Of a DNA stretch of 64,000 nt, positions 38,286 through 59,620 are shown piece after piece. Positions within the stretch are counted from its first letter, which is position 1. Each line of letters starts with the position of its first letter. The position numbers and the translations under genes are program-made. The notes beneath the pieces were generated by a model. The model did no database searches. It worked only from the letters and a program-made list of their open reading frames with translations, and was not told where the DNA came from. Source of the DNA: Rhodothermus marinus DSM 4252 (GTDB taxonomy: Bacteria > Bacteroidota > Rhodothermia > Rhodothermales > Rhodothermaceae); the NCBI RefSeq assembly GCF_000024845.1, contig NC_013501.1, positions 1,306,001-1,370,000 on the forward strand. The letters are read 5' to 3'.

Positions 38286-39053
38286 ATGAGCAAGCTATTT
38301 CAGTCCATTGGTAAGACCGAGTTGCTCAGCCATACGGTAGAGCAGGCCATCGAAGCCGCCATTCGCGAAGGGCATCTCAATGTAGGCGATCGGCTCCCCT
38401 CTGAGTTCGAGCTGTGCAATCAGTTCGGTGTAAGCCGGACGGTCATCCGCGAGGCGCTGCGTATGCTTTCGGCTCGAGGGCTGGTGCGCATTGAAAAGGG
38501 CCGGGGCGTCTTCGTATGTGCGCCTTCTGTCGAGTCCGTCTCCAATCCGATGGCCCTGTACCTGCACATGAATCTCGGGCCCGATCATGCCCTGGAGGTG
38601 GTGCGTGCCCGTCAGCTCATCGAGCCGGTCATTGCCGCCGAAGCCGCCCGTCGTCATACGACCAAGGATGTGCGCCGCATTCAGGAAAACCTCGAAGCGC
38701 TGAAAGCCTGCAGCGGGTCTTTTGAGCAGTTGACGCAGGTGGACATGGAGTTTCATGTGCTCATTGCCAAGGCGACGCACAACCCGGTCGTGCCGCTGAT
38801 CATCCATCCCATCCAGCAGCTTATGCCGCGTATCAAGTTGAACGTGTACCTCTCCGTAGAGGACGCCCATGCGTCGGCCGTCGAATGGCACACGGCCATC
38901 GCCGAGGCCATCTTCGCGCGGGATGCCGAGCGGGCAGAGGCGTGCATGGCACAGCACCTCCGCATTGCAGAAGAGCACGTCCGGAAGATGCTGGTGGCGC
39001 TGGAAGACAAAGCGAAGCCATTGCGGAACGGAGAGTCGGCAAGCGCCTCTTGA
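38286..39053 (+). CDS. GntR/FadR-family transcriptional regulator with FCD domain
   Basis: 255-aa DNA-binding regulator. The winged helix-turn-helix (about residues 12-75) contains LPSEFELCNQFGVSRTVIREALRML and GLVRIEKGRGVFV. The FCD ligand domain (about 95-230) has VDMEFHVLIAKATHN and later His residues that form the usual metal/effector site. The family senses small acids such as hexuronates or KDG/KDPG. It heads the alginate locus and precedes eda and kdgK homologues, so a repressor released by a DEH/KDG-type intermediate is the natural inference. Candidate operators are listed at 39093-39118 and 52084-52109. Confidence 0.87.
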   Translation: MSKLFQSIGKTELLSHTVEQAIEAAIREGHLNVGDRLPSEFELCNQFGVSRTVIREALRMLSARGLVRIEKGRGVFVCAPSVESVSNPMALYLHMNLGPDHALEVVRARQLIEPVIAAEAARRHTTKDVRRIQENLEALKACSGSFEQLTQVDMEFHVLIAKATHNPVVPLIIHPIQQLMPRIKLNVYLSVEDAHASAVEWHTAIAEAIFARDAERAEACMAQHLRIAEEHVRKMLVALEDKAKPLRNGESASAS

Positions 39054-39092
39054 GCAGTTTCTGTTTTTGAAAACAGTGTGAAGCATATCTCG

Positions 39093-39118
39093 TGTGTTGT
39101 ATGACATGTTACATCACA
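39093..39118. promoter_or_regulatory. Candidate operator for the GntR/FadR regulator
   Basis: Inverted repeat TGTGtTGTA, eight-base spacer, TACAtCACA (8 of 9 arm positions complementary). It overlaps the -33 element and spacer of the promoter at 39097-39127, a place where a bound repressor would block polymerase. A related sequence occurs at 52084-52109; the 19-base cores TGTATGA...TTACA..CA agree at 15 of 19 positions. Confidence 0.6.
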
Positions 39119-39207: not shown

Positions 39208-40785
39208 ATGAAGCTGCGCTACTACCTGTCGACTGCGGTGGCCGCTCTTTTCCTGATCGGCGGCACGGCATGGGCCCAGGTGACCGTCGTCAAGAGCGGC
39301 AACTGGAGCGACCCGACGACCTGGTCTACGGGGGCCGTTCCGACCGCCACCGACGACGTGGTCATCGAAGATAGTACAGTGTATGTCGATGTTGCGGACG
39401 CCAAGGCTCGCAACGTGACGATTCGGGGGAGCGGCCAACTCCTCTATCAGCGCGATCCTTCGCTGCAGGGCTTCGAGCTCTCCGTGCACGGGAATCTCGT
39501 GATTGAAGGCCCGGACGCCGAGTTGCGGCCGCTTTCGCAGGAAGACGAGGCAACCGGCCAGGGGCTGGGCATCGTCTATCATCGCCTGATCATCTACGGT
39601 GACATCGACAACAGCACGGGTGGAACGTTCGATATGCGTCGCGGCGCGACGAGCTCGGATCCGCCCACGGCCGCTTTTGTCGACCTCTACTTTGTGGGCG
39701 ATACCGACTCGCACGTAACGCTGGGTGAGTATGACACCAATAAAAACCAGCTCTTTCAGGTTTTCATTCAGAAGGAAAACGGTGCAAAGGTAGTGCTGCA
39801 CAGCGATGTAACCCAGGACAACAACAGTCTGGCCAAGCTCCACCTCGACAGCGGCTACATCGTCACGAACGAGTTCCGCTGGCGGGTATATTCGAACAGC
39901 TCCAGTGCGGTGGTGGGCGGCTCGCCGGAGTCCTATGTGATCGGTGCGCTGTCGCGGGGCATCCCGAAGAGTGGCGACCCCTATGAGCGCGTCTTTCCGG
40001 TGGGCGACGAAAACGGCTATCGGCCCGTGACGATCTATTCGTCCGACGTGGTGCCGGACGACCAGGACTTCGAAGTTCGGGCCATTTCCGGCGATGCCGA
40101 TCCCGGTGGGGCTACGTTCCAGGGTGGATTGACGGACGTGTCCCCGGTGCGGTACTACGCCTTCACCATGTACGAACGGGATTCGAGCGACCCGTACACG
40201 GTGGAGAAAATCACCATTACCTATGGCTCGGACGACGGGGTTCCCGAGGGGAGCAGCGATTTCGTGGTGGCCACATCCGTGGATGCAAGCCGTATGGTGT
40301 GGCGCAACAGTGGCGGTTTCGATCCGGCTACCGGCCAGCCTCACGTGACGAGTCTGGCCAATCCGCCGACGCCGATTCAGTCCGATGTGCTGACGGACTT
40401 CACGTTCGAGATTTCGGTGGTACCGGGCAATCCGCCGCAGTTTTCGCGGGACACCTACTACGCGGCCATCGGTACGAAGAGTGCCTTCACGGTAGCGGCC
40501 GAAGAGATTACGGCCGTGGATGGCTTCCGACTGGGTCCGGCCTATCCCAATCCCTTCCAGGAGGCTACGCGCATTGTGCTGGAGTTGCCGCGCGTGGCTC
40601 CGGTGGACGTCCGCGTGTACGACCTGCTCGGCCGTGAAGTAGCCCGGCTGGCGGAAGGAACGTGGACGCCCGGTACGCACACACTGATGTGGAAACCGGC
40701 TGCTGCGGTTGCGCCGGGGCTCTACCTCATCCGCGTGCAGGCGGGAGCCCTGACGGCAACCCGGAAAGTGATGGTGGTGCGCTAA
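39208..40785 (+). CDS. Secreted protein of unknown role with T9SS sorting domain
   Basis: 525-aa exported protein. Signal peptide MKLRYYLSTAVAALFLIGGT, cleaved near AWAQ. The mature N-terminus reads SGNWSDPTTWSTGAVPTATD, a G8-like or related beta-rich module found in surface proteins, followed by more beta-rich sequence. The last 75 residues are a T9SS/Por domain (AYPNPFQEATRIVLEL ... YLIRVQAG). I recognise no catalytic motif. As the first gene behind the operator-covered promoter it may bind alginate or stabilise lyases at the cell surface; this is inference. Confidence 0.7.
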   Translation: MKLRYYLSTAVAALFLIGGTAWAQVTVVKSGNWSDPTTWSTGAVPTATDDVVIEDSTVYVDVADAKARNVTIRGSGQLLYQRDPSLQGFELSVHGNLVIEGPDAELRPLSQEDEATGQGLGIVYHRLIIYGDIDNSTGGTFDMRRGATSSDPPTAAFVDLYFVGDTDSHVTLGEYDTNKNQLFQVFIQKENGAKVVLHSDVTQDNNSLAKLHLDSGYIVTNEFRWRVYSNSSSAVVGGSPESYVIGALSRGIPKSGDPYERVFPVGDENGYRPVTIYSSDVVPDDQDFEVRAISGDADPGGATFQGGLTDVSPVRYYAFTMYERDSSDPYTVEKITITYGSDDGVPEGSSDFVVATSVDASRMVWRNSGGFDPATGQPHVTSLANPPTPIQSDVLTDFTFEISVVPGNPPQFSRDTYYAAIGTKSAFTVAAEEITAVDGFRLGPAYPNPFQEATRIVLELPRVAPVDVRVYDLLGREVARLAEGTWTPGTHTLMWKPAAAVAPGLYLIRVQAGALTATRKVMVVR

Positions 40786-40857
40786 AGCATGGCGGTGTGG
40801 GCGGCGGCGGCCATGTGCCGTCGCCGCCCACTGCTGTCTGCCAGAACCAGAGCAGTC

Positions 40858-41502
40858 ATGCGACACGAGATTGTTTCGGAATTGATCCGGCGCGGGGCGG
40901 TGGCCGTCATCCGCATGAGCGACCCCGAGCGCCTGGTGCGCGTGGTGGAAGCCATCTGCGAGGGCGGCGTGACGGCCATCGAAATCACGATGAGCATACC
41001 GCGCGCCTTTCAGATGATCGAAGAAGTCGCGCGTCGCCTGGGCGACGTGGCGCTGGTGGGCGCCGGGAGCGTGCTCGACGCCGAGACGGCCCGCCTGGTC
41101 ATCGAGGCCGGGGCCCGCTACGTGGTCAGTCCGGTCTTCAAGCCGGAGATCATCCAGACGGCGCACCGCTACGACGTGCCGGCGCTTCCGGGCGCCTTTA
41201 CGCCGACGGAGATTCTGGCGGCGCACGAGGCCGGGGCCGACATTGTGAAGGTGTTTCCGGCCGACGTGGTGGGGATGGCGTTTTTCCGAGCGATTAAAGC
41301 GCCGATGCCGCAGCTCAAGCTGATGCCCACCGGTGGGGTGACGCTCACGAACGCGGGCGAGTGGCTTCGGGCGGGGGCGTGTGCGGTGGGGGTGGGCAGC
41401 GCGCTGCTGGACCGGGCGGCGATCGCCGAGGGGCGCTGGGAGAAGCTCACCGAAAACGCACGCACGCTTATGGAAAGCATTCGGCAGGCACGGGCCCAGT
41501 AA
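40858..41502 (+). CDS. eda: KDPG aldolase (2-dehydro-3-deoxy-phosphogluconate aldolase)
   Basis: Splits 2-keto-3-deoxy-6-phosphogluconate into pyruvate and glyceraldehyde-3-phosphate, the last step of alginate-uronate breakdown. 214 aa, the usual length for this class I aldolase. The catalytic Glu42 is in TAIEITMS, the Schiff-base Lys131 in ADIVKVFPAD, and the phosphate-binding block is MPTGGVTLTNAGEW. I chose ATG 40858; the frame can be opened at 40789, but those 23 residues are Arg/Ala-rich and overlap no ribosome site. It is 18 bases before the KDG kinase gene. Confidence 0.9.
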   Translation: MRHEIVSELIRRGAVAVIRMSDPERLVRVVEAICEGGVTAIEITMSIPRAFQMIEEVARRLGDVALVGAGSVLDAETARLVIEAGARYVVSPVFKPEIIQTAHRYDVPALPGAFTPTEILAAHEAGADIVKVFPADVVGMAFFRAIKAPMPQLKLMPTGGVTLTNAGEWLRAGACAVGVGSALLDRAAIAEGRWEKLTENARTLMESIRQARAQ

Positions 41503-41520: not shown

Positions 41521-42549
41521 ATGAAAGTAGTTACGTTTGGAGAGATCATGTTGCGGCTGTCGACGCCGGGTTTCAGTCGGTTTGTGCAGGCGTCGACGTT
41601 CGAGGTGACGTTCGGAGGCGGGGAGGCGAACGTGGCCGTGTCGCTGGCCAACTACGGGTTGGAGAGTTACTTCGTGACGAAGCTTCCCAAGCACGAGATT
41701 GGTCAGGCGGCGGTCAATCATTTGCGTCGGTTCGGGGTGCGGACGGATTTCATTGTGCGGGGCGGGGATCGGATCGGGATTTACTTTCTGGAGACGGGGG
41801 CCAGTCAGCGGCCTTCGAAGGTGATTTACGACCGGGCGCATGCGGCGATCACGACGCTTCGCGAGGGGGAGGTTGACTGGGAGCAGGTGCTGGAGGGGGC
41901 GCGGTGGTTTCACTGGACGGGGATCACGCCGGCGCTGGGCGAGTCGGTGCAGGAGGAGCTTCGTCGGGCGCTGGAGGTGGCGCGTCGGCTGGGGGTGAAG
42001 GTGAGCGCGGATTTGAACTACCGGGCCAAGCTCTGGAGCGTGGAGGAGGCGCAGCGGGTGATGCGGTCGTTGATGGAATACGTGGACGTGTGCATAGGGA
42101 ACGAGGAGGATGCGGAGAAGAGCCTGGGGATTAAGCCGAAGGGGGTGGACGTGGAGGCGGGGAAGCTGGAGGAGGCGGCCTATCGGGAGCTGGCGCAGGA
42201 GCTGAAGCGGACGTTTGGGTTTGAGGCGGTGGCGATCACGCTTCGGGAGAGTTATTCGGCGTCGGTCAACGGCTGGAGTGCGTTGATGGTGGACGATCGG
42301 GACTGTCGGGAGGGTTATCGGTCGCGTCGGTATGAGATTCAGCTGGTGGACCGGGTTGGAGGGGGCGATGCGTTTGCGGGGGGCTTGATTTATGGGTTGT
42401 TGACGAAGGGTGACACGCGGGAGGCGTTGGAGTTTGCGGTGGCGGCGTCGTGTTTGAAGCAGACGATTCCGGGGGATTTCAATCTGGTGAGCGCGGGGGA
42501 GGTGGAGAAGCTGGCGCAGGGCACGGGCTCCGGACGCGTCGAACGCTGA
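41521..42549 (+). CDS. kdgK: 2-keto-3-deoxygluconate kinase (PfkB family)
   Basis: Phosphorylates KDG to KDPG, feeding the aldolase encoded upstream. 342 aa with the PfkB hallmarks: N-terminal MKVVTFGEIMLRLSTPGF, substrate loop FGGGEANVAVSLANYG, and the second signature DRVGGGDAFAGGL with the catalytic Asp283. Codon use is oddly G-rich: long runs of GAG, GGG, CGG and GTG, with a purine bias not shared by the genes on either side, and hardly any GGC. The reason is unknown. Starts after AGCAGCAGCC with no strong ribosome site. Confidence 0.88.
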   Translation: MKVVTFGEIMLRLSTPGFSRFVQASTFEVTFGGGEANVAVSLANYGLESYFVTKLPKHEIGQAAVNHLRRFGVRTDFIVRGGDRIGIYFLETGASQRPSKVIYDRAHAAITTLREGEVDWEQVLEGARWFHWTGITPALGESVQEELRRALEVARRLGVKVSADLNYRAKLWSVEEAQRVMRSLMEYVDVCIGNEEDAEKSLGIKPKGVDVEAGKLEEAAYRELAQELKRTFGFEAVAITLRESYSASVNGWSALMVDDRDCREGYRSRRYEIQLVDRVGGGDAFAGGLIYGLLTKGDTREALEFAVAASCLKQTIPGDFNLVSAGEVEKLAQGTGSGRVER

Positions 42550-42592: not shown

Positions 42593-45433
42593 ATGACCAT
42601 GCGGCGGGTTCAAGCACTTCTGGTAATGCTGGTCTGGGGTGGTATCGCTTCCGCGTTTGCCCAGACCGGCAAGATCGCAGGCTACGTTCGGGATGCGGCC
42701 ACGGGTGATCCGCTACCCGGCGTGAATGTGGTAATCGTCGGGACCACCCTGGGAAGCGCCACGGACATTGATGGCTACTATGTCATTCTCAATGTGCCGC
42801 CCGGTGTTTATGAAGTGCGGGCTACGTTCGTCGGCTACCAGCCCGTTACGAAGACCGATGTGGTGGTCAACTCGGGGCGCACGACGGAGCTCAACTTTGA
42901 GCTGACCGAAGCCCCTATGCAGATCGGCGAAGAGATCGTCGTGGTGGCCGAACGGCCGGTGGTCGATCCGGAACGGGTAGCTTCGAGCGAGATTTTCCGT
43001 CCGGCCGACGTCGCGGTGAGCACGCCGGGCATTTACGACTTGGCGGACGTGTTCGACCTGACGGTGGATGTGTCGGACGGTCACTTCCGCGGTGGGCGCA
43101 CGGGCGAAGAGCTTTACCTGCTGAACGGGATCAACATCGTCAATCCGCTGAACAACAGCCGGGCTTTTCAGCCACCGACGATCGCGTTGGAGGAGGTTGA
43201 AATCATCACCGGTGGATTCCCGGCCGAATATGGCAATGCGCAGAGCGGTGTGGTCAACATCGCGCTTCGGGAAGGCCCCAGCCAGGAGTGGAGCGGCAAC
43301 GTGGTCGTGCGACTGCGGGCACCGGGGCGCAAGCACTTCGGACCGAGTGTGTTCGATTCGACGGCCAACCCGTACCTGCAGGCTTTCAACAGCCCTGAGG
43401 ACTGGATGGGGGACAGTGGTGAGGGTTCTTACTACGGCTTTATTGGATATGGCTTCAATCCGCCTGATAGTCTTACAGGTGGGCGTATTGCATACGGTAT
43501 GTGGCAGCAGGCCCGCAAAGAGCTGGGGCGTAACTATGGTAAGATGTGGGACAGCGACATGCAGGTGGCGCTGGGTGGGCCGCTGACCTCCTGGGCGCGC
43601 ATTTTCCTGTCGGGTCGTTTTCAGAGTGAGGAATGGGTGCTGCCCTACGCACATCCGCTGGAGACCCGCCAGCTGCTCGGTACGGTCACCTTCGATGTGG
43701 GCAGCAACAAGAGCCTGCGACTGGCCGGGGCCTACAATACCAACGAGGCCATCAGTGCCAGCAGCAGCTTCTGGAACTGGCTCTGGGATCGTGCAATCGG
43801 GGTGGCCCCGCAAAAAGAGACGGCCTATGCGCTGGGGCTTCGGTTTTCCCATGCATTGTCGGGCCGGTCTTTCTATGAAGTGAACCTGTCCACGCTCTGG
43901 ACGCGTTTCCGGCAAGGTGCTGCCGTGCTCGATCCGAATCGCTTCCGCGAAGACGCCGCCGACGCAGGGGTCTGGCGCTATTACAACCCGCCGGATCAGT
44001 TCCGCGTGGGCTACATGGAGAATGACTTTCTTGATGAGCGGACGCGGACCTGGAGTCTGGATGCCGCCTACAGCAACCAGTTGACCAGCAATCACCTCCT
44101 GAAAGCGGGCGTGCAGGCACGCCTGTACGAGCTGGACGTGCGCAACCGGCGCAACCTTTCGAGTCCCTCGGACGCGCAGGACGAATTCTTCAAGAGCAAT
44201 CCGGTCGATCTGGGCATTTACGTCCAGGACAAGATGGAATTCGGTGGCCTGATCGCCAACGTCGGGCTGCGCCTGGACCTGTACAACCAGAACATAGACT
44301 ACTATACGAATCAGTTCAATCCCTTCCTCAATCCGAACTACGATCCCACGCAACCGCCGGTAGGCGAAAATGTCTATCTCAGTCCGGACCTGGCGGACAA
44401 GAAACCCACCCCATGGGTTTACGGGCTGCAGCCGCGTCTGGGCATCTCGTTCCCCGTCTTTGTGCAGACCGTGTTCTATTTGAACTACGGGGCGTTTTTC
44501 CAGCGCCCACCTTTTGAGCGGTTGCAGGTGAAGCGCTTGCAGCACGCCAATCAGACGACCATCTTCCGGATGGGCAATCCGCGTCTGGAGCCCGAGCGCA
44601 CGAACATGTACGAAGTGGGTGTGGCCCAGCAGCTTCCGTGGGATTTCGTGCTCGACGTTTCGGGCTACTACAAGGACGTGAAGAATCTGGTGCAGCTCGC
44701 CTACTTCCGTCAGGGTGAAGAGCTGCCCTATGAAACCTATATCAACCGGGATTACGCCGATATCCGCGGCTTCCGAATTTCCCTCAACCGTAGAACTGGA
44801 TGGTGGCGGGCTTCGGTGCGCTACCACTACAGCGTAGCGACCGGTAAAACGTCGTCGTCGTTCGACGCACCGCCCACGTACACGCAGCTGGAAAATGGCG
44901 AGGTGGCCGTTTCCGGTGGGGTGCTCAACCTGAACGACGTGCTGCTCGACTTCGACCGCACGCACAACCTGCTGGCTCAGCTCACGGTGAGCACGCCCGG
45001 GGACTTCGGCTTCCGGATCGGGGATGTGAATGTGCTGGGCAACCTTTCAATCTCCCTGAAAAGCCGGATCCAGAGCGGCCGACCCTACACCTACGTCGGG
45101 CCCAGTGGCGGGTTGGAAGGGGTGGTCTTGATGAATCGGCGGAGTCCGACGGAGTACCAGACCGACCTCAAAATTACGCGGCGGTTTAAGGAATTCGGGG
45201 ATCGGGTGGACTTCGTGGCCTTCGTCGAAGTGATCAACCTGTTCAACAACCGGCATTTTGATTACGACTACGTCTTCAGGGATCCACTGCTGATTCGTTC
45301 TTATGAGGGCGACGCTGATGAACCCATTGAACTGATCATTCCACCCAACGGAAGCTGGACGGCGAATCAGGAGTGGCGCATTTACGACAACCTGCCGCGG
45401 TCCTTCTACTTCGGGGTTTCTCTGGAATTCTAA
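42593..45433 (+). CDS. TonB-dependent receptor with carboxypeptidase-regulatory-like N-terminal domain
   Basis: 946-aa outer-membrane receptor. The signal peptide runs to about residue 24 (ends FAQ). A CarboxypepD_reg-like domain follows (GKIAGYVRDAATGDPLPGVN to about residue 110), then a plug domain (LYLLNGINIVNPLNN, GGFPAEYGNAQSGVVNI). A long beta-barrel ends in YFGVSLEF, the aromatic C-terminus expected for the barrel assembly machinery. It is the likely importer of oligoalginate. It is not followed by SusD but by a 767-aa T9SS protein, a different pairing. ATG 42599 is an alternative start. Confidence 0.85.
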   Translation: MTMRRVQALLVMLVWGGIASAFAQTGKIAGYVRDAATGDPLPGVNVVIVGTTLGSATDIDGYYVILNVPPGVYEVRATFVGYQPVTKTDVVVNSGRTTELNFELTEAPMQIGEEIVVVAERPVVDPERVASSEIFRPADVAVSTPGIYDLADVFDLTVDVSDGHFRGGRTGEELYLLNGINIVNPLNNSRAFQPPTIALEEVEIITGGFPAEYGNAQSGVVNIALREGPSQEWSGNVVVRLRAPGRKHFGPSVFDSTANPYLQAFNSPEDWMGDSGEGSYYGFIGYGFNPPDSLTGGRIAYGMWQQARKELGRNYGKMWDSDMQVALGGPLTSWARIFLSGRFQSEEWVLPYAHPLETRQLLGTVTFDVGSNKSLRLAGAYNTNEAISASSSFWNWLWDRAIGVAPQKETAYALGLRFSHALSGRSFYEVNLSTLWTRFRQGAAVLDPNRFREDAADAGVWRYYNPPDQFRVGYMENDFLDERTRTWSLDAAYSNQLTSNHLLKAGVQARLYELDVRNRRNLSSPSDAQDEFFKSNPVDLGIYVQDKMEFGGLIANVGLRLDLYNQNIDYYTNQFNPFLNPNYDPTQPPVGENVYLSPDLADKKPTPWVYGLQPRLGISFPVFVQTVFYLNYGAFFQRPPFERLQVKRLQHANQTTIFRMGNPRLEPERTNMYEVGVAQQLPWDFVLDVSGYYKDVKNLVQLAYFRQGEELPYETYINRDYADIRGFRISLNRRTGWWRASVRYHYSVATGKTSSSFDAPPTYTQLENGEVAVSGGVLNLNDVLLDFDRTHNLLAQLTVSTPGDFGFRIGDVNVLGNLSISLKSRIQSGRPYTYVGPSGGLEGVVLMNRRSPTEYQTDLKITRRFKEFGDRVDFVAFVEVINLFNNRHFDYDYVFRDPLLIRSYEGDADEPIELIIPPNGSWTANQEWRIYDNLPRSFYFGVSLEF

Positions 45434-45440: not shown

Positions 45441-47744
45441 ATGTCAGCCATGAAAGCGTTGCGTGTGCCATCCGTGCTGCGATGGGGACTCCTGGGTGTT
45501 TCCCTGCTGATTGTCGGCGTTACTGAAGCCCAGGTCCGGCGATATGAGGTGCATCGCCGGGGCATGTTGCACGAGACTGTCTACAACACGGGTGAAATCG
45601 GACGAGCTTACCATCAGGGACAGGCGGGCAATGCCACGACGGTTCCGCTCATGGAATGGCCTGGTTTCTCGGCCACTGTGGTGGACGACATTTCTTATGA
45701 CGGCAAACATCACATTCTCGGTGGTGGCATTCATATTTCCGGCGATGCCGCTGATACCACCCAGCGGATGTTTGCCTTCTGCGGGGCGGTCGGTGCCGGC
45801 ACGCCGGAGCAGGTGGCCGGCCGCTGGGCCTTCCCCTACAGCATCGTTCGCATCGAGAACTATCCGGTACTCGAAAACGGCGAACTGAACCCGGACTACA
45901 ACCCGGACGAAGCCGAAGAGATTATCATCGCCACGTGGGGCACGCCTCTGGGTATTCTGGTCAAACGCACCACGCGGGCCTGGAGCTATCCTGACTACAA
46001 CGACTTCATCATCTACGAATACGAACTGACCTACACCGGCGATCGGGATGGCGACCTGGTGCCCGACACCGACGTGCCATTGACCGACGTGCTGGTCAGC
46101 TTCGCCTATGGCTTTGCGCCCAATATGTTCGGCTACCAGCGTCAGTACAACCGCTGGCTCTATTCCGACTTCGAGCGCAACGACCAGCGCGCCCGGTTCG
46201 ATCCCATGCGCTGGCTGGCCTACAACCTGCACATGAATGGCCTGCCGGATCCCGTCTACTACGAGGAATGGGGGCGCACCGGCATGAACGGCGGCGGTCT
46301 GAATGCACCCGGCGCGCCCGGTTTTATGATGCTCTACTACGACACGGAGCATCTGGCCACGCCGGAAGAGACGCACGCGGCCGTGGCTGCCAGTGACTCG
46401 GCCATCGTCTGGACGCTGGAATACGGCGGGGGCCCCAAGATCAAACAACCCTGGATGGTTCGTCTGGAAACGAGTAACCTGCGTCAGTCGAAAATTGAAC
46501 AGCAATACGTGGTAGATCCGCGTAAAAACCCACCCTATCGGGCGGGTTCTATAGAGCCGCCGGCGGGCGATAGTACGCACCCGGCGTACCAGTGGTATCA
46601 GCAGTACTGGGTCGGGCGCGGACAGTTCAACCATCGACAGACCCGCAAGGCGGTGGGGCGCATGTTTACCTTCGGCCCTTATACGCTGCATATCGGGGAC
46701 AAAATTGAGTTCTCGTATGCGGAAGTGATCGGCTACGGGGCGGCGCGCAAGGAAGAGACGGACGCCGGGCTTCTGGACTTTGGGGGCTCCTGTGGGGAAG
46801 ATTGCGGTGAGCCCAGTGAGAAAGCATTCTATCCAGTGCCAAACTGGTACGAGAAGATCCTCTATGGCGGTACGCCTTTCCCGGGCTACCCGTACGGTTT
46901 CCTTTATGAATACGGAAGCACGTACCTGTCGGAGTATGACCTGCCGGACTACGTGGACTCGGATGTGGTGACCGTCCGCGAGGTGGCCGACAAGGCCAAA
47001 GAGGCCTACACCGGCGATCCTTCGGGGCCGCCGTATGCGATCGAGCAGTTCCCCAAAGACGGCGTCTATCGGCTCCCTATCCCGGTTCCGGCGCCGGCCA
47101 TCGAAGTGGCCAACGATGAGCGGGGTAACAACATCATTTACTGGGGGCCGCAGGTCGAACAGTTCGACCATCCACGGCTCATGGGTCGCTTCGATCACTA
47201 CGAGGTGTATCGGGCGCCGCATCCGACCGGTCCCTGGACGCTGCTGGCGGTCGTGCGGCCGGGGGACCCCAACTACGTCAATCAGGGCGACATCTCCTTC
47301 GTGCCGAACGGTTACTACTTCGTGCGGGACCCCGAGCCACGCATTGGCGAGACCTTCTACTACTCGGTGTTGAGCGTTGACGAGCACGGCAACAGGAGCG
47401 GTCGGACCAACATCACCCGGCACGAGTCGCAACTGGGACCGGTCGAAAAGCTCGGTAACGTCTACGTAGTGCCCAACCCGTTTGTCGTCAGCTCGGGCTT
47501 CGCCGGCGAGGTAGAGAGCCAGCTCCGCATCGGCTTCTACGGGCTTCCGGCTCGGGCTACGATCAAGATCTACTCGTTCTCCGGGCAACTGGTGGCCACC
47601 ATCGAGCACGACGATCCGACCTACTCGGTGGCTTATTTCCAGGTGACGCGCAACAATCAGCGGTTGGCCTCCGGGGTCTACTTCTACGTGATCACGACGC
47701 CGGAAGGTGAGGTGGCGCGCGGCAAGTTCGTCATCATCCGGTAA
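45441..47744 (+). CDS. Large exported protein of unknown function with Fn3-like region and T9SS-type tail
   Basis: 767-aa protein. Signal peptide up to about residue 31 (VTEAQ). A long region without a recognised family follows (residues 32-560, rich in Tyr/Trp/Gly and acidic loops). Around 580-660 comes a fibronectin-III-like stretch (HYEVYRAPHPTGPWTLLAVV). The tail, VYVVPNPFVVSSGF ... GVYFYVITTPEGEVARGKF, resembles T9SS/Por sorting domains. It starts eight bases after the TonB receptor gene and takes the place that SusD has in other Bacteroidota. A surface glycan-binding partner is plausible but unproven. Confidence 0.65.
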   Translation: MSAMKALRVPSVLRWGLLGVSLLIVGVTEAQVRRYEVHRRGMLHETVYNTGEIGRAYHQGQAGNATTVPLMEWPGFSATVVDDISYDGKHHILGGGIHISGDAADTTQRMFAFCGAVGAGTPEQVAGRWAFPYSIVRIENYPVLENGELNPDYNPDEAEEIIIATWGTPLGILVKRTTRAWSYPDYNDFIIYEYELTYTGDRDGDLVPDTDVPLTDVLVSFAYGFAPNMFGYQRQYNRWLYSDFERNDQRARFDPMRWLAYNLHMNGLPDPVYYEEWGRTGMNGGGLNAPGAPGFMMLYYDTEHLATPEETHAAVAASDSAIVWTLEYGGGPKIKQPWMVRLETSNLRQSKIEQQYVVDPRKNPPYRAGSIEPPAGDSTHPAYQWYQQYWVGRGQFNHRQTRKAVGRMFTFGPYTLHIGDKIEFSYAEVIGYGAARKEETDAGLLDFGGSCGEDCGEPSEKAFYPVPNWYEKILYGGTPFPGYPYGFLYEYGSTYLSEYDLPDYVDSDVVTVREVADKAKEAYTGDPSGPPYAIEQFPKDGVYRLPIPVPAPAIEVANDERGNNIIYWGPQVEQFDHPRLMGRFDHYEVYRAPHPTGPWTLLAVVRPGDPNYVNQGDISFVPNGYYFVRDPEPRIGETFYYSVLSVDEHGNRSGRTNITRHESQLGPVEKLGNVYVVPNPFVVSSGFAGEVESQLRIGFYGLPARATIKIYSFSGQLVATIEHDDPTYSVAYFQVTRNNQRLASGVYFYVITTPEGEVARGKFVIIR

Positions 47745-52080: not shown

Positions 52081-52083
52081 CAA

Positions 52084-52109
52084 CGTCATGTATGATGTAT
52101 TACAACATA
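52084..52109. promoter_or_regulatory. Second candidate operator of the GntR/FadR regulator
   Basis: The core TGTATGATGTATTACAACA at 52089-52107 agrees with the site at 39098-39116 in 15 of 19 positions. It lies right after the predicted -7 box, over the expected transcript start, a classical repressor position. The outer arms (CGTCATGTA / TACAACATA) are less symmetric than at the first site. Confidence 0.5.
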
Positions 52110-54334
52110 TGATGCGACGCACTCTACTGCTTCTGGGGTTGATGCTGGGCCTGCAGGGCACGGCATTTCTGGAAGTGCTCGCGCAGCCGCGGCATCCCCG
52201 TGTGTTCATCTCGGCCGAAGAGGCGGCGGCACTTCGGGAGAATGCCGAGCGCTACACGCTGCTCAGGACCACGCTGGCGCGCGTGCGGGCCGAGATGGAA
52301 GAGGTCCTGGCGAAGCCCATCGAAATTCCGCCGCCCGGCGAAGCCGGTGGTTACGAGCACGAGCGGCACAAGCAGAACTACCGCGAAATGTTCAAAGCCG
52401 GGCTGCTCTACCAGATCACCGGCGACGAACGCTATGCCCGGTTCGTGCGGGATATGCTGATGGGCTATGCGGCCATGTATCCCGAGCTGGGGCCGCATCC
52501 GCGCAGCGAGCGCCAGATTCCCGGCAAGCTCTTCCACCAGCTGCTCAACGAGTGCGTCTGGCTGGTGCACACCATTGTGGCCTACGACGCGATCTACAAC
52601 TGGCTGAGCGAGGCCGATCGGGCCCACATCGAGGCCAGCGTGTTTCGTCCGATGGCCTCCTGGATCATGAACGAAGGGGCCTACGAGTTCAACCGCATCC
52701 ACAACCACGGCACCTGGGCGGTAGCCGCGGTGGGCATGACCGGCTACGTGATCGGCGAGCCGGACTGGGTGGAAAAGGCGCTTTACGGCAGCAATAAAGA
52801 GGGAAAAAGCGGGTTTTATGCGCAGCTCGATCAGCTCTTCTCACCGGACGGCTACTACATGGAAGGCCCCTATTACGCCCGCTATGCGCTCTGGCCTTTC
52901 TTCTTCTTTGCCGAGGCGATCGAGCGGTACGAGCCCGAGCGCGGCATCTACGCCTATCGCGACAGCATCCTGAAAAAAGCCCTTTATGCCACGGTGCAGA
53001 CCGCCTTTCCGGATGGCGTCCTGCCGCCGCTTAACGATGCCTCGCTCACGATGGACATTCGGGCGCCGGGCGTCGTGCTGGCCACCGATGTGGTGTTTGC
53101 CCGCTACGAGGGCGATCCGGCCCTGCTGGGCGTGGCGCACGAACAGGGCCAGGTGGTGCTCAACGGCGCGGGGCTGGCCGTGGCGAAAGCCTACGACGAG
53201 GCGTCCGAAGTGCCCCGGATGACGTGGCCCAGTGTCGAGTTCACCGACGGGGCCGACGGCCGGCGAGGTGGTATCGGCTTTCTGCGTACCGGCGTGGGCC
53301 GCGACCAGACCGTCGTGCTCATGAAGTACGGCGTGCACGGACTGGGGCACGGCCACTTCGACAAGCTGCACTTCATGCTCTACGACAACGGCCGCCAGGT
53401 CATCCGAGACTACGGCTTTGCCCGGTTCATCAACGTGGAACCCAAGTACGGCGGCCGCTACCTCCCGGAAAACGAAAGCTACGCCAAGCAGACCATCGCT
53501 CATAACACGGTGGTGGTGGACGAGACCAGCCAGAACCGGGCCGATCGGGACGAGGCCGAGGCCATGTCGGGCCAGCGGCACTTTTTCGACGGCAGGGGCG
53601 GCCCCGTACAGGCCATGAGTGCGCGTGCCAACGGCTACTGGCCGGGCGTGAACATGCAGCGGACGCTGCTGCTCGTCGAAGATGCGCGGCTGGACTATCC
53701 CGTGGTGGTGGACCTCTTCCGGGTGACGGCCGACACCATGCACCAGTACGACTATCCCCTGCACTTTCTGGGGCAACCCATCTGGGACAACCTGGGCATT
53801 CGGGGCTACCCCGATCAGCTCAGGCCGCTGGGGACCGACTTCGGCTACCAGCACATCTGGGAGGAGGCGCGAGCGCGCACCGATAGCGTCGTGCAGTTTA
53901 CCTGGCTCGATGGCTCGCGCTACTACACCTGGACGGTGGCGGCCGCCCCGGCCACAGAGGTCATCCTGGGACGCATCGGCGCTGGCGATCCCCGCTTCAA
54001 TCTACGCCGGGAACCGATGATTCTGGTGCGCCGCCGCGGCCGGGACCATCTGTTCGCCAGCGTCATCGAGCCGCATGGTTACTTCAACGAGGCGCGCGAG
54101 ATCAGCCTAAGGGCCAGGCCTCAGGTGCAGGCGGTACGGGTGATCGGCCACAGCGAGGCGGCCAGTGTGGTGGAGGTGGTCGGGAAGGGCGGCTGGACCT
54201 GGACCATCATGGTGACGAACGGGCCGGCCGATCCTGACGCCCGCCATACCGTCACGTTCGGCAACCGCACCTTCTCGTGGACGGGCAATTATGCGGTGGA
54301 GGGCGTGGTCGTTGCCAGTGATTCCCGCCGTTAA
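52109..54334 (+). CDS. Polysaccharide lyase family 17, exolytic oligoalginate lyase
   Basis: 741-aa enzyme that releases unsaturated monouronate from alginate oligomers. Signal peptide MMRRTLLLLGLMLGLQG, cleaved near LAQP; no lipobox and no T9SS tail, so it should be periplasmic. The alpha-toroid domain has NRIHNHGTW (Asn199, His200) and GYYMEGPYYARYA (Tyr255/256). The heparinase II/III domain has GHGHFDKLHFMLYD, DYGFARF and TIAHNTVVVD, the His/Asp/His set that binds zinc in PL17, and Tyr458. These positions match those known from Alg17C-type enzymes. I chose ATG 52109 (or 52112); a longer frame from 52070 would start inside the promoter. Confidence 0.9.
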   Translation: MMRRTLLLLGLMLGLQGTAFLEVLAQPRHPRVFISAEEAAALRENAERYTLLRTTLARVRAEMEEVLAKPIEIPPPGEAGGYEHERHKQNYREMFKAGLLYQITGDERYARFVRDMLMGYAAMYPELGPHPRSERQIPGKLFHQLLNECVWLVHTIVAYDAIYNWLSEADRAHIEASVFRPMASWIMNEGAYEFNRIHNHGTWAVAAVGMTGYVIGEPDWVEKALYGSNKEGKSGFYAQLDQLFSPDGYYMEGPYYARYALWPFFFFAEAIERYEPERGIYAYRDSILKKALYATVQTAFPDGVLPPLNDASLTMDIRAPGVVLATDVVFARYEGDPALLGVAHEQGQVVLNGAGLAVAKAYDEASEVPRMTWPSVEFTDGADGRRGGIGFLRTGVGRDQTVVLMKYGVHGLGHGHFDKLHFMLYDNGRQVIRDYGFARFINVEPKYGGRYLPENESYAKQTIAHNTVVVDETSQNRADRDEAEAMSGQRHFFDGRGGPVQAMSARANGYWPGVNMQRTLLLVEDARLDYPVVVDLFRVTADTMHQYDYPLHFLGQPIWDNLGIRGYPDQLRPLGTDFGYQHIWEEARARTDSVVQFTWLDGSRYYTWTVAAAPATEVILGRIGAGDPRFNLRREPMILVRRRGRDHLFASVIEPHGYFNEAREISLRARPQVQAVRVIGHSEAASVVEVVGKGGWTWTIMVTNGPADPDARHTVTFGNRTFSWTGNYAVEGVVVASDSRR

Positions 54335-55153: not shown

Positions 55154-55169
55154 GCCAGCCCGCTCTGCC

Positions 55170-55535
55170 ATGGAGATGACGACAAAAAATCAATCGAAAC
55201 GGTTTGTTTTCAGTCAGGAAGTGGCCTGGGAGGATCTGGGCGGGGGCATCCGGCGCCAGATTCTCGGCTACGACGAGCACCTGATGCTGGTGCGGGTGCT
55301 TTTCGAAAAAGGCGCGGTGGGGGTGGTGCATCACCATCCCCATCGTCAGACCACCTACGTGGAGTCCGGCGTGTTCCGGGTGCGCATCGGCGATGAAGAG
55401 GCCATCCTGAGGGCGGGCGATGGGTTTTTCGTGCCGCCCGATGTGCCGCACGGTGCCGAGGCGCTGGAAGCGGGCAGCCTGATTGACGTGTTCGCACCGG
55501 CACGCCGATCTTTTCTGGGCCTTGACGAGGATTGA
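55170..55535 (+). CDS. kdgF: KdgF-like cupin, uronate linearisation
   Basis: 121-aa single-domain cupin. The metal-binding motif VVHHHPHRQTTYVESGVF gives His54-56, His58 and Gln60, and PPDVPHGAEA gives His94. KdgF proteins speed the opening of 4,5-unsaturated monouronates to DEH (DKI from pectin), between the exolytic lyase and the DEH reductase; both lie next to this gene. ATG 55170 gives MEMTTKNQSK; the frame continues upstream to 55041 only as overlap with the SDR. It ends seven bases before the next lyase gene. Confidence 0.85.
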   Translation: MEMTTKNQSKRFVFSQEVAWEDLGGGIRRQILGYDEHLMLVRVLFEKGAVGVVHHHPHRQTTYVESGVFRVRIGDEEAILRAGDGFFVPPDVPHGAEALEAGSLIDVFAPARRSFLGLDED

Positions 55536-55542: not shown

Positions 55543-58215
55543 ATGGGGACGCCTCACCTGCAGCCTGGCAGTGCGGAAAGACGCAGGCGCTTTCCGCCGG
55601 GTATGCTGGCGCTGGCGGCGTGGCTGCTCGTCGGCTCCGTCGCCAGCGCCCAGAACCCTTATGAGACTTACACGGGCTTTACGGTCCCGACCGAAGCCGT
55701 CCTTCCGGACAGCGAAGTGCATCCCTCGCTGTGGTTTTCGGCCGAAGAGCTTGCCACGATCCGGGCTCGCTGGCAGGACCCGGCTTACGCCGAGCTGGTG
55801 GACGAAATCAAACGGGACATCCGGGACTTCAAAAATCGCAACCCTGAATCCACCGAGCCCGGCGAACGGGCACGGATGGCCAAGACGCTGGCCTTCGCCT
55901 GGCTGATGGAAAACGATGTCGTGGCGCTGGTAAAAGCGCTTGCAACGCTGGAGGTGGCCTACGACAACGTACCCCAGACGTACGATTCAGGCGTGTTCGA
56001 TGGCGAATACGACGAGATCTACCGGGCCACGTGGTTGCAGAACTACTGCGCCGCCTACGACTGGCTGTACGACCAGCTCGGGTCCCAGCTGGAGGCCGAA
56101 TTACGCGCCAAACTGGTGGCCGAGGCGCAACTGCTCTACACCTACATGAACCAGTACGCGCCAAGGCCGCACAACCACCGGTCCAAGCCGGCCTATGCGC
56201 TCGGGACGGCGGCGCTGACACTGTCGAGCCATCCGAATGCGGCGCAGTGGCTCTCGTTTGCGCTCGACCGGCAGAACAGCGTGACGAAGTACATGTTCAG
56301 CCACGAGGGCGTCTATCGAGAAGGGCCTCACTATTATGTCTTCACGCTGGTCAACGCGATTCCTTTTCTCTGGCATTACCTGCACGTGTCGGGTGTGAAC
56401 CTTTTCCCGTACTATCAGCCGGCCTTCGAATGGCCCATCCGTATCCGAAACAGCCGAGGGTGGATGCCCAACATCGAAGACGGCTTCATGAAGCCCGCCC
56501 CCACGCATGCCGTGGCCGCAGCCTATCGCGACACGCCGACCCTGCTGCACAGCAGCGCCCCGCTGGCCGAAATTCTACAGTGGAACTGGCAGACCACCCG
56601 CTTTTTCACGCAGAACTACACCGGCGCCACGAACGACGTCACCTGGGAGATCGACGTGCTGCTCTCCTGGGACGCGAGTATTCCGGCAACGCCTCCGGAC
56701 GTCTCGCCGACGCAGGTGTTGCAGAGCGGGCAGGTGGCCTTTCGCAATGCCTGGAGCGATGTAGGGGAGTCGTCGCGCTATCTACTGTTCCATGGCGTGG
56801 CCTCGGCCGACAACCACGACCACCCTGATCATCTCTCGTACGTGGTGGATGCGGCCAACACGACGCTGGCCGTGGATGCCGGTTACGGGCCGGAGGGCTC
56901 CAGCGACGACCGGCGTAGCTGGTACACGTCGCCTCAGGCCCACAACACGGTCACGGTCAACGGTTTCCCGCTGGTCGATTACAGCACGGCGCGGAACGAA
57001 GGTCCACGTCTGCGGCACGCGCTCGACACGCCGTTTTACGACTTCGCCGAAATGCAGGCCCGCAGCCAGGGCGTGGCCGGCGGCGCCGAAGTACGGCGCG
57101 GCATTGCGTTTCCTGAAGAACGTTTCTGGGTGGTGTACGACCTGGGCTCCTCGGACAACGAGGCCAGCTACCAGGTGCACCTGCACGGGCGGGGGACGTT
57201 TGCGCGCAACGGTTCATGGCTGACCTGGACCGCCCAGCCTGACACCTACGGCGAGGGCGCCCGCCTGCATGCGGCGTTCGCCGGCAACCGCACGCTGACG
57301 ATTTCGGAGAACACCGGCTGGACGAGTCTCTACTGGGGGCATGAGGAGACGCAGACCTACGTTTCCGTGCGGCAGACGGCCACCGATCCGGTCTTTCTGC
57401 ACGTGCTCTATCCGACTCCGTTGAACGGAACGCCTCCGGCGCTGGTGGACCGGAGCGGCTCCGGCATCGTCAGTCTGGAGCTGACCGAAGACGCGGGCAT
57501 CACCAACGTGGCCGTGCAGCGAGATCAGGTGCTGCGAACGGCCGGTCCGCTGGCGACCGACGCGATTTTTGCCTGGACCCGGCGCGTGCAGGGGAACATC
57601 GTGCAGTTCGCTCTGACCGAAGGGCGAGAACTCCGGTGGGAAGGGCGCCTGCTGCTTTCGGCCAGCGACACGCTGACGGTGGCCGTCGATCGCTCCAATC
57701 CGTCGCGTCAGTTGCTGTATGTGGAGCCGTTCACCGGACAGGCCGAGTTGACGCTTCGGCTGCTGCCCGACACGGCCACGCCGCTTTCCGTCACGCTCGA
57801 CGGACAGCCGCTGGCCTTCGAGACGCCGGAGCAGGGCACGGTGCGCTTCCAGCTCAGCGGCGATCGGCTCGGAGCCGGCAGCGTCATTGTGGTAACAACG
57901 AACGTGACCTCGGCCGCCGAGCCCCATGAGGCGGCCACCGCAGGTTTCATGATAGAGGGACCCTATCCCAACCCCACGTCGGGGCCGATGCACCTTCGGC
58001 TTGTACTGGCCCGACCGGCGCATGTACGGGCGGTGCTGTACGACGTGCTGGGACGTCGCCTGGCGACGCTGTGGGATGGGGCGGTGGGAGCCGGACAGAC
58101 CGAATTGACCTGGGATGTGGGACGCCTGTTGCGACAGAAACTGACGCCAGGGCCCTATCTGATCGAGGTGGAGGCCGACGGCGCGCGCAGGGTAGTCCGG
58201 GGTCTGGCATTTTAG
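55543..58215 (+). CDS. Heparinase II/III-fold polysaccharide lyase with T9SS tail (possible PL39-type alginate lyase)
   Basis: 890-aa secreted protein. Signal segment MLALAAWLLVGSVASAQ ends near residue 38. The toroid domain has PRPHNHRSKPAYAL (Asn211, His212) and YREGPHYYVF (Tyr264/265). The beta-sandwich domain has ADNHDHPDHLSYVVDAANTT and SPQAHNTVTVNGF. This repeats the catalytic and zinc layout of PL17 without its detailed sequence, which suits PL39 or a related heparinase-type family. The tail (GPYPNPTSGPMHLRLV ... YLIEVEADG) is a T9SS sorting domain. It probably cuts polymeric alginate outside the cell. ATG 55543 was chosen because it follows the kdgF stop. Confidence 0.8.
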   Translation: MGTPHLQPGSAERRRRFPPGMLALAAWLLVGSVASAQNPYETYTGFTVPTEAVLPDSEVHPSLWFSAEELATIRARWQDPAYAELVDEIKRDIRDFKNRNPESTEPGERARMAKTLAFAWLMENDVVALVKALATLEVAYDNVPQTYDSGVFDGEYDEIYRATWLQNYCAAYDWLYDQLGSQLEAELRAKLVAEAQLLYTYMNQYAPRPHNHRSKPAYALGTAALTLSSHPNAAQWLSFALDRQNSVTKYMFSHEGVYREGPHYYVFTLVNAIPFLWHYLHVSGVNLFPYYQPAFEWPIRIRNSRGWMPNIEDGFMKPAPTHAVAAAYRDTPTLLHSSAPLAEILQWNWQTTRFFTQNYTGATNDVTWEIDVLLSWDASIPATPPDVSPTQVLQSGQVAFRNAWSDVGESSRYLLFHGVASADNHDHPDHLSYVVDAANTTLAVDAGYGPEGSSDDRRSWYTSPQAHNTVTVNGFPLVDYSTARNEGPRLRHALDTPFYDFAEMQARSQGVAGGAEVRRGIAFPEERFWVVYDLGSSDNEASYQVHLHGRGTFARNGSWLTWTAQPDTYGEGARLHAAFAGNRTLTISENTGWTSLYWGHEETQTYVSVRQTATDPVFLHVLYPTPLNGTPPALVDRSGSGIVSLELTEDAGITNVAVQRDQVLRTAGPLATDAIFAWTRRVQGNIVQFALTEGRELRWEGRLLLSASDTLTVAVDRSNPSRQLLYVEPFTGQAELTLRLLPDTATPLSVTLDGQPLAFETPEQGTVRFQLSGDRLGAGSVIVVTTNVTSAAEPHEAATAGFMIEGPYPNPTSGPMHLRLVLARPAHVRAVLYDVLGRRLATLWDGAVGAGQTELTWDVGRLLRQKLTPGPYLIEVEADGARRVVRGLAF

Positions 58216-58342
58216 CAGATAGACGCGAGGCAAAATTCCCGGGTGTCTGGCCGGCACGGGCAGAGACGGACGCGCCCGCATGGAGTGGTAATCCGTCTCC
58301 CCGTTGACTTTCTGTCGGAGTCGTCCAAGCAGGAGGTAAGCA

Positions 58343-59620
58343 ATGCGCAAAGTCAAAGGCCTTCGCTGGTGGATTATCAGCCTGATCGCGATTGCCACTG
58401 TCATTAACTACATCGACCGGGGTGCGCTTTCGATCCTCTGGCCCAACATCTCCGCCGATCTGGGGATGACCAAAGAGGATTATTCCCTGATCGCCATCAT
58501 GTTTACAATCGCCTATGCGATCAGTCAGACGCTCTCCGGGCGGCTGTACGACTGGGTCGGCACGCGCCTCGGCTTTGTCATTTCGATCACGGTCTGGTCG
58601 ATTTCCATTGCGCTCCATGCCATTGCGCGGAGCGTGACCAGCTTCAGCATCTTCCGATTTCTGCTCGGGCTGGGCGAGGCCGGCAACTGGCCCGGCGCCA
58701 CCAAGGCGGTGGCCGAGTGGTTTCCGATCAAAGACCGGGCGCTGGCGCAGGGCATTTTCAACGCCGGGGCCTCCATCGGGTCCATCATCTCGCCGCCGCT
58801 GATCGCCTTCCTGTACCTGTGGCTGGGCTGGCAGGCGACCTTTGTGGTGCTGGGCGGACTGGGTCTGCTCTGGCTCATTCCCTGGGTGATCGTCTACAAG
58901 GCGCTTCCAGACCGCCATCCCTGGCTGACCGAGGAGGAGCGTCAGTACATTCTGAGCGGACAGAAAATCGAAGGTGCCGAGGCGGAGGATGAACGGGTGC
59001 CTGGCTTTTGGGAACTTCTCTCGTACAAACAGACCTGGTCGGTGCTCGTGTCCCGCTTTTTCCTGGACCCGATCTGGTGGCTTTTCGTGTTCTGGCTGCC
59101 CATCTACCTGCACGACCGGTTTGGCTTCGACATCCAGCAGATCGGCCTTTCAGCATGGGTGCCGTACGTGGGAGCGGCCGCCGGGGCGCTGTTTGGCGGC
59201 TGGTATGCCGGTTTCCTGATGCGTCGGGGCTGGACGGTGGACAAGGCCCGCAAATGGGCCATCACGCTCGGCGGGCTGATCATGCTGCCCGGGTTGCTGC
59301 TCACCTCGATTGCAGCCCATCCCGTCGTGGCTGTCCTGTTGATCGCCGTGGTGCTGTTCGGATTCCAGGTTTCCATCGGCAACATCCAGACGTTGCCCAG
59401 CGACTTCTATTCCGGAAAGGCCGTCGGGTCGGTGGCCGGTATGGGCGGGACCACGGCTGCGCTCGGGGTGATCATAACAACCTGGCTGGTTCCCAAGCTG
59501 GTGGTGGCCAGTTACGTACCGTTTTTCCTGATGGGTGCCATGCTGGTACCGCTGGGTGTGCTCTCTGTGTACGTGCTGGGTGGCCGCATTCGGCGTGTAC
59601 CACTGCGTCGGCGGCCCTGA
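58343..59620 (+). CDS. MFS transporter, hexuronate (ExuT-like) type
   Basis: 425-aa inner-membrane transporter with about twelve hydrophobic segments. Family marks are VINYIDRGALSILWPNI in helix 1, GRLYDWVGTRLG between helices 2 and 3 and GLGEAGNWPGATKAVAEWF in helix 4, all typical of the anion:cation symporter/ExuT group. In this locus it should import unsaturated monouronate or DEH from the periplasm into the cytoplasm. The ribosome site AGGAGGT (58331-58337) is strong. The 127 bases between it and the lyase show no gene. Confidence 0.88.
   Translation: MRKVKGLRWWIISLIAIATVINYIDRGALSILWPNISADLGMTKEDYSLIAIMFTIAYAISQTLSGRLYDWVGTRLGFVISITVWSISIALHAIARSVTSFSIFRFLLGLGEAGNWPGATKAVAEWFPIKDRALAQGIFNAGASIGSIISPPLIAFLYLWLGWQATFVVLGGLGLLWLIPWVIVYKALPDRHPWLTEEERQYILSGQKIEGAEAEDERVPGFWELLSYKQTWSVLVSRFFLDPIWWLFVFWLPIYLHDRFGFDIQQIGLSAWVPYVGAAAGALFGGWYAGFLMRRGWTVDKARKWAITLGGLIMLPGLLLTSIAAHPVVAVLLIAVVLFGFQVSIGNIQTLPSDFYSGKAVGSVAGMGGTTAALGVIITTWLVPKLVVASYVPFFLMGAMLVPLGVLSVYVLGGRIRRVPLRRRP

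Follow-up and report, generated by a model that had tools for sequence, protein, structure and literature searches.

A recurrent SusD-free TonB-HypA-HypB-HypC cassette in the alginate locus of Rhodothermus marinus

Background

The SusCD pair is the standard picture of glycan uptake in Bacteroidota. We analyzed an alginate locus that is built differently, located at positions 38286-59620 of a 64,000-nucleotide stretch of the Rhodothermus marinus DSM 4252 genome (NC_013501.1, positions 1,306,001 to 1,370,000); this whole stretch is called the window below. Next to its alginate lyases the locus has four consecutive genes encoding a TonB-dependent receptor and the proteins HypA, HypB and HypC, which we refer to as the cassette. 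As in the SusC/SusD systems, a TonB receptor with a CarboxypepD-reg domain and a surface protein are encoded in a polysaccharide locus. But here there is no SusD, the receptor scores far below the SusC cut-off, and the partner protein has no lipobox, carries instead a tail of the type IX secretion system (T9SS) and is followed by its own PorV-family barrel.

The locus itself is already known, since PMC9530828 describes it in Rhodothermus marinus MAT378 as "Alg-PUL" (PUL, polysaccharide utilisation locus) and reports a structurally identical counterpart in DSM 4252, a point that the initial annotation of the window had missed. That paper names the lyases (PL6, PL17 and PL39), a hypA with a T9SS tail, a hypB of the PorV/PorQ family and hypC, notes the tails on AlyRm1 and AlyRm3, and gives optima near 75 °C for the endolytic PL39 and 81 °C for the exolytic PL17; the activity of the short-chain dehydrogenase/reductase (SDR) kdgR is verified according to the same source, though unpublished. 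SusD is absent from its text, which in the excerpts does not treat the four genes as a cassette. We found no account of the TonB-HypA-HypB-HypC cassette in the open-licence PMC literature (preprints excluded). What is new is thus the cassette in the place of SusD, which is recurrent and undescribed in that literature.

Other described systems are close to this one in part. Gammaproteobacteria import alginate products by TonB receptors without a susD-like gene (PMC8286568). Their SusC homologues do not have the N-terminal carboxypeptidase-regulatory domain that the R. marinus receptor has, and the excerpted text of that paper mentions no T9SS cassette. Type B substrates of the T9SS are surface proteins that need a PorP/SprF shuttle encoded directly downstream (PMC12618676), much like HypA with its own barrel, but the HypA tail matches the Type A model TIGR04183, the carrier is of the PorV family and a TonB receptor is attached. 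In the PorZ-PorQ and PorU-PorV pairs a tail is held uncleaved by a PorV-type barrel (PMC10202324), and the tail and end of HypA resemble those of PorZ; these pairs are however attachment machinery of the T9SS, whereas HypA has a TonB receptor as its neighbour and is encoded in nutrient loci.

Results and discussion

The alginate locus is free of SusD

The initial annotation, made from the sequence alone, had described a complete alginate route without SusD, and both parts hold. Family scans of the window proteins recovered every gene class that it named, all on the forward strand (Table 1), covering the route from the polymer to pyruvate and glyceraldehyde-3-phosphate. A SusD homologue just outside the window had been set beforehand as the finding that would speak against a SusD-free locus. 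Searching the whole genome with three Pfam models gave six places for PF07980, seven for PF14322 and four for PF12771, which merge by position into eight SusD genes; none of them lies inside the window, and the nearest one, at 1,243 kb of contig C1, is ~100 kb before the locus. A Pfam scan of 18 proteins (those of the locus and its near neighbours), through which alone PF12741 was applied, found no SusD family at E 0.001. Our own SusD profile, built from six seed genes of this genome, recovered 15/15 SusD places of other genomes as a control and has no match in the window. The SusD-free state of the locus is confirmed.

Judged by the curated SusC/RagA model TIGR04056, the receptor does not qualify as a SusC (50.4 bits against a cut-off of 368). 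No Cys occurs in the first 50 residues of the HypA encoded in the window, so that HypA does not look like the lipoprotein partner of a SusCD pair. We also searched the N-termini of its relatives for a lipobox pattern and found it in none of the 57 that could be judged (of 80).

The cassette recurs across lineages

Two conserved peptides served to scan contigs of 84,980 species for HypA relatives; 135 were confirmed and the best 80 kept, and many are from metagenome-assembled genomes (MAGs). According to the record titles they span Rhodothermales, Ignavibacteria, Melioribacteraceae, Calditrichota, Neomarinimicrobiota and KSB1 among others. The TonB receptor stands directly upstream of HypA in 78/80 loci, with one contig end and one small opposite open reading frame (ORF) in between as the exceptions. 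A PorV-family gene is directly downstream in 76/80, and HypC comes next after it in 69/80; the exceptions are three and ten contig ends, respectively, and in both cases the locus L155, where a run of N is present and an unlabelled ORF occupies the PorV-family position. Our SusD profile found no SusD in any of the 80 loci. The present genome encodes a full-length HypA paralogue (49% identity) that likewise has a TonB receptor, a PorV-family gene and HypC as neighbours. A paralogous cassette lies at 2.778 Mb of contig C1. The pairing of the TonB receptor with a 767-residue protein, as initially annotated, is thereby upheld, but the partner is no isolated unknown and belongs to a recurrent cassette, in which HypB is its conserved neighbour rather than the general PorV of the T9SS, as had been overlooked.

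The four cassette proteins share their inheritance to a large extent. Their tree distances, compared in 28 genomes, correlate with one another at 0.78-0.91 and with those of the secretion protein SprA at 0.28-0.37, and the mutual correlations are still 0.75-0.90 after partialling out SprA. TonB and HypA are the best-agreeing pair (r 0.91). Because the mutual correlations are high and those with SprA low, we consider that the cassette has one history, unlike that of the secretion machine.

The hypA of PMC9530828 has a length of 2,181 nt (726 residues), which corresponds to a start at Met42 of the ORF in the window (45441-47744) and would lose the signal peptide. The HypA relatives reach upstream of Met42, with conserved H38, R40 and G41.

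The genes that follow the cassette were sampled by taking one gene per locus, on the same strand, of 200-1100 residues and without a cassette profile. Among 65 first genes, the tail was found in 43, and Pfam labels were DUF5123 (19), heparinase fold (12) and SDR (8); among 57 second genes, we counted 22 with the tail, 17 with DUF5123, 16 with PL6-type chondroitinase-B, eight each with heparinase fold and alginate_lyase, and six with GH88. From these counts the HypA clade often adjoins enzymes for uronate polymers, and many of the following genes carry no such label. DUF5123, seen in loci L112-L166, is a candidate for an uncharacterised enzyme or binding domain for uronate polymers.

The initial annotation had proposed a SusD-free, T9SS-centred use of alginate at high temperature. 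This stands for the missing SusD, the receptor unlike SusC and the tails of the partner and the endo-lyases. It does not stand for the temperature, as the record titles of several relatives (taken as titles, uncounted) point to lakes, groundwater or sediment.

One locus of the same genus may have lost part of the cassette. In the otherwise intact locus L047 (genome G003), 822 bases (positions 8845-9666) separate residue 569 of TonB from residue 339 of HypA, so that both genes are disrupted together, with the lyases and HypB-HypC still in place. Either the uptake pair was lost naturally or the assembly is at fault.

Two classes of T9SS tails in one operon-like run

The host has a T9SS. SprA obtains 2630.7 bits, and PorU (980 bits) and PorV (292.5 bits), both over cut-off, are encoded adjacent to each other; SprA is over cut-off in 29/29 genomes searched. 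Four T9SS-type tails, including those of both polymer-type lyases, had been annotated in the locus. With the Type A model TIGR04183 (cut-off 23 bits), run on the last 120 residues, the G8-domain protein (41.7 bits) and HypA (34.0) are over the cut-off, PL6 is borderline at 22.3 (22.7, or 23 with neighbours), PL39 is under it at 19.2, and PL17 shows no tail. We nevertheless accept the PL6 and PL39 tails because a profile of enzyme tails from related loci gives each of them more than 50 bits. HypA has 14.9 bits with the Type B model TIGR04131 (cut-off 35), and its closest NCBIfam tail model is that of PorZ, with 37.3 bits and below the cut-off of 260.

The tails fall into two classes, which we call enzyme class and cassette class. 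The enzyme-class versus cassette-class scores in bits are 83.8 vs 13.1 for the G8-domain protein, 53.3 vs 11.1 for PL6 and 51.5 vs 6.6 for PL39, whereas HypA has 92.9 for the cassette class and 31.0 for the enzyme class. Profiles trained on one half sorted the other half without error (19/19 cassette proteins and 33/33 enzyme tails), on sets that are not blind, as resemblance to the HypA tail was the basis for choosing the cassette tails and resemblance to the G8 tail that for the enzyme tails, with three HypA loci common to both. All of 76 HypA proteins fall in the cassette class. Elsewhere in the genome, the six further cassette proteins are all of the cassette class and the seven other tailed proteins tested all of the enzyme class, and the PorU tail lies between both (25.3 and 31.4). 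By these profile scores, HypA carries a tail of a class distinct from those of the lyases in the same operon.

The xylan locus of this genome (Rmar_1068-1073, PMC6987092), to which the SusD gene at 1,243 kb appears to belong as matched by position and order, has a TonB gene with T9SS-tailed neighbours and was considered as a further cassette. It was rejected: the tails of its four supposed members are of the enzyme class, and the genome-wide PorV-family search lists no match there.

A predicted glycosidase-type fold in HypA

We predicted the 3D structure of HypA with AlphaFold2 from 76 sequences (predicted local distance difference test, pLDDT, 90.5; predicted template modelling score, pTM, 0.88); this model replaces an earlier one from 11 sequences with pLDDT 64, which was not used. 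Residues ~29-598 align on the β-supersandwich of dextran dextrinase (9ju0) with Z 19.8 over 264 residues at 3.4 Å using VIA-align, and GH116 and GH94 enzymes align to the same part with Z about 17. The C-terminal end aligns on PorZ (5m11, Z 11.0, 88 residues), and the PorZ tail is also the sole match of the HypA profile among PDB sequences (E 0.018). The model is mostly β, hence the catalytic helical barrel seems to be missing. HypA is therefore apparently a glycosidase-type β-supersandwich without the (alpha/alpha)6 catalytic barrel of GH94 and GH116, as far as the predicted model goes.

We rejected HypA as a SusD homologue, as Pfam gives no SusD and none is among the Foldseek and VIA-align matches listed, which leaves room for a remote likeness. 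One domain family for the partners of all cassettes was also rejected. The six other cassette proteins of the genome differ from HypA: one has the full HypA core, two have ~65 residues of it and three have none, and 4/5 of those sent to Pfam have no match at all. We limit the supersandwich claim to the HypA clade.

HypB and HypC

The initial annotation had placed two PorV/FadL-like barrels inside the locus, as we also find. HypB belongs to the broad PorV/PorQ family (NF033709, 190 bits, cut-off 90) and its profile matches PorV (6h3i, E 3e-20), but it is neither a canonical PorV (NF033710, 84.9 bits, cut-off 250) nor a PorQ (NF033711, 81.4 bits, cut-off 220). Ten genes of the genome pass the PorV-family cut-off: the canonical PorV, which is encoded directly after PorU and away from the locus, PorQ, a PorV2-like gene that with 266 bits misses its cut-off of 325, and seven members of cassettes, which belong to the broad family only. 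Besides HypB, the other six of them have 57.8-80.6 bits with NF033710 against the same cut-off of 250. For each of the seven, the two genes immediately preceding it on the same strand encode a TonB receptor and a cassette-tailed protein; for the other three, none of the three preceding genes is a TonB gene.

HypC is similar to FadL-like barrels. Its profile matches 9hiv_F (E 9.5e-14), BamG of the β-barrel assembly machinery (BAM) complex of Bacteroidota (9n2d, 5.8e-9; PMC12611786), CymD (5.8e-9), TbuX (7.6e-9) and also TodX. HypC misses the BamG model NF053685 (26.4 bits, cut-off 250), so that the likeness is one of superfamily only, and unlike BamG it is encoded within the cassette.

TonB, tailed protein and PorV units elsewhere

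The unit of a TonB receptor, a T9SS-tailed protein and a PorV-family barrel is present in seven copies in this 3.39 Mb genome, which has 36 TonB barrel matches. The number of PorV-family matches ranges from 10 to 42 per genome in the 28 HypA-bearing genomes. We hand-picked 40 PorV-family genes from these matches, three of which are HypA loci of the 80. TonB is within three genes upstream in 40/40 (35 at position -2, three at -3 and two at -1), the gene at -1 has a cassette-type tail in 36/40, and our SusD profile finds SusD in 0/40. In a sample of 118 genomes of the phylum, the PorV family occurs in 91, with 2-5 members in some families and at least 10-16 in others. As these units recur and their middle proteins are not all alike, we regard the alginate cassette as a single clade within a broader design.

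The unit can be mobile, as one of the seven cassettes (L060) lies at about 11-18 kb of the 125-kb contig C2, which we take to be the plasmid of Rhodothermus marinus DSM 4252. Another one (L073, C1 about 300-315 kb) precedes genes for a T9SS-tailed protein that matches CBM20 and for a GH13 alpha-amylase, which suggests a possible starch cassette of the same design.

Possible function of the cassette

The gene neighbourhoods and profile matches are best read as making HypA a putative surface glycan-capture partner of the TonB receptor, carried and held by its own PorV-like barrel. We lean slightly towards a model in which the outer-membrane step is run by the TonB-HypA-HypB-HypC cassette, SusCD-like in its work and built from other parts. 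PL6 and PL39 would leave the cell by the T9SS through their enzyme-class tails, which are seen in the sequence, and cut alginate outside, the endo-activity of PL39 being published. HypA would exit by the same system through its distinct tail class. HypB would then collect HypA and keep it on the surface by the uncleaved tail, replacing the lipid anchor of SusD. It was reported that the translocon passes the tail to PorV loops (PMC10994853), that the PorZ tail stays uncleaved on PorQ, and cognate PorV-like barrels were suggested to protect tails (PMC10202324). On the surface HypA would sit with the TonB receptor, catch oligo-uronides and hand them over. HypC might help the assembly or join the complex, the weakest step of the model. 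PL17, which is untailed and of published activity, would act in the periplasm, and the transporter of the major facilitator superfamily (MFS), KdgF, SDR, KdgK and Eda, whose families were identified, would complete the route. We infer every step that leads from gene neighbour to complex, binding and transport.

Several points weigh against such a role. Relatives of HypA with E <1e-100 are in just 11 of the 118 genomes of the phylum sample. The tree correlations can be partly raised by the linkage itself. The Foldseek scores for HypA are low (TMq at most 0.21 among the matches listed), and a shared fold shows no function. A Cys is within 25 residues before the RGMLH motif in 13/80 HypA proteins, without a lipobox pattern, and 23 N-termini are unjudgeable. 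Type A tails all use one PorV according to PMC12618676, and HypA matches the Type A model. The eight SusD genes elsewhere in the genome could act in trans.

An alternative hypothesis is that the TonB receptor works alone, with HypA as an ordinary T9SS surface protein (an adhesin or glycan binder) and HypB only as its delivery shuttle, with no SusCD-like complex. As the gammaproteobacterial receptors that serve alginate use do without a susD-like gene (PMC8286568), a partner may not be needed, which also counts against the cassette model. The PDB match of HypB is the T9SS carrier PorV, and in 2/40 of the sampled loci (L178 and L183) TonB is directly before PorV with no tailed protein in between. 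However, the fixed place of TonB upstream of HypA in 78/80 loci, and the agreement of their trees being the best of all pairs, speak against this hypothesis, and we consider it unlikely.

Uptake of alginate oligomers by a SusCD pair encoded elsewhere, leaving a side role to the local cassette, is improbable. The eight SusD genes make it conceivable, but all of them are about 100 kb or more from the locus, and 13/28 of the HypA-bearing genomes have no PF07980 SusD match (at most seven matches in the rest), although the negative ones are possibly incomplete because many are MAGs. It is very improbable that the cassette serves a non-alginate cargo and is merely located among polysaccharide genes, e.g. 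a hydrophobic compound passing through HypC, whose profile also matches the hydrophobic-compound channels CymD, TbuX and TodX, since the HypA clade repeatedly adjoins uronate-polymer enzymes and shares one operon-like run with them here, and FadL-like BamG serves outer-membrane protein assembly (PMC12611786).

Returning to the cassette model, we speculate more broadly that units of TonB, a cassette-tailed protein and PorV may form a second, SusD-independent class of outer-membrane nutrient importers, in each of which an uncleaved T9SS tail would fix a dedicated surface capture protein to a PorV-type barrel of its own. Polymer uptake in Rhodothermota, Ignavibacteria and several candidate phyla might rest mainly on such units, which would run against the rule of one PorV for Type A tails; we offer this tentatively, as a nearly even call that falls somewhat on the doubtful side. 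If true, searches that rely on the susC/susD pair, which PMC8286568 describes as a hallmark by which polysaccharide loci are recognised, miss loci in Rhodothermota, Ignavibacteria, Calditrichota, Neomarinimicrobiota and KSB1. A role would also be found for many PorV-family genes of the HypA-bearing genomes, and Type A-like tails, as Type B ones, could be served by carriers of their own. In this culturable organism, tail cleavage and complex formation can be tested directly.

Gene content and surroundings of the locus

The lyases, the enzymes from 4-deoxy-L-erythro-5-hexoseulose uronate (DEHU) to 2-keto-3-deoxy-6-phosphogluconate (KDPG), a regulator and a transporter are all in one cluster, as in an alginate PUL. 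Twelve co-directional genes, from 39208 to 58215, form an operon-like run with intergenic gaps of 3-72 bp.

Table 1. Genes of the alginate locus, with positions in the window (KDG, 2-keto-3-deoxygluconate)
Feature	Position	Strand	Evidence
GntR/FCD-family regulator	38286..39053	+	PF00392 5e-23, PF07729 5.5e-26
G8-domain protein, enzyme-class T9SS tail, opens operon-like run	39208..40785	+	G8 24.8 bits (cut-off 22.9); TIGR04183 41.7 bits
Eda/KdgA, KDPG aldolase	40789..41502	+	PF01081 5e-44
KdgK, KDG kinase (PfkB family)	41521..42549	+	PF00294 6e-38
TonB-dependent receptor with CarboxypepD-reg domain, cassette gene 1	42593..45433	+	PF00593 1.6e-18, PF13715 6e-19; TIGR04056 50.4 bits
HypA, cassette gene 2, 767 residues: signal peptide, predicted β-supersandwich, Ig/FN3-like region, cassette-class T9SS tail	45441..47744	+	AlphaFold2, VIA-align, tail profiles
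HypB, cassette gene 3, PorV-family barrel	47768..48823	+	NF033709 190 bits; PorV 6h3i E 3e-20
HypC, cassette gene 4, FadL/BamG-like barrel	48848..50245	+	profile matches 9hiv_F, BamG 9n2d, CymD, TbuX
PL6 alginate lyase (AlyRm1), enzyme-class T9SS tail	50252..51997	+	PF14592 3e-102; AlyGC 5gkd E 5e-100
PL17 exo-lyase (AlyRm4), no T9SS tail	52070..54334	+	NF042990 671.5 bits, below cut-off 1400; activity according to the abstract of PMC9530828
SDR, DEHU reductase (kdgR of PMC9530828)	54395..55153	+	PF13561 1.5e-67
KdgF-type cupin	55164..55535	+	7zyb 1e-36, 5fpx 7e-24
PL39 endo-lyase (AlyRm3; second heparinase-fold lyase), enzyme-class T9SS tail	55543..58215	+	6jph E 2e-156
MFS transporter	58343..59620	+	PF07690 7e-57; TIGR00893 259.8 bits, below cut-off 395

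The sequence TGTATGAC is at 38258, before the regulator gene, and again at 39100, in the gap between the regulator and the G8-domain protein, and is a possible operator seen by eye. Short palindromes are also present, given without a chance estimate. No sigma-70-like promoter was found in 37800-39300, where 0.7 would be expected.

Past the MFS gene, the PD40 protein at 59800-62643 has an HELVH motif, noted by eye, which makes it a possible fusion of a zinc peptidase with a propeller. One protein on the reverse strand (62651-63499) joins a CusF domain to a SCO1/SenC domain.

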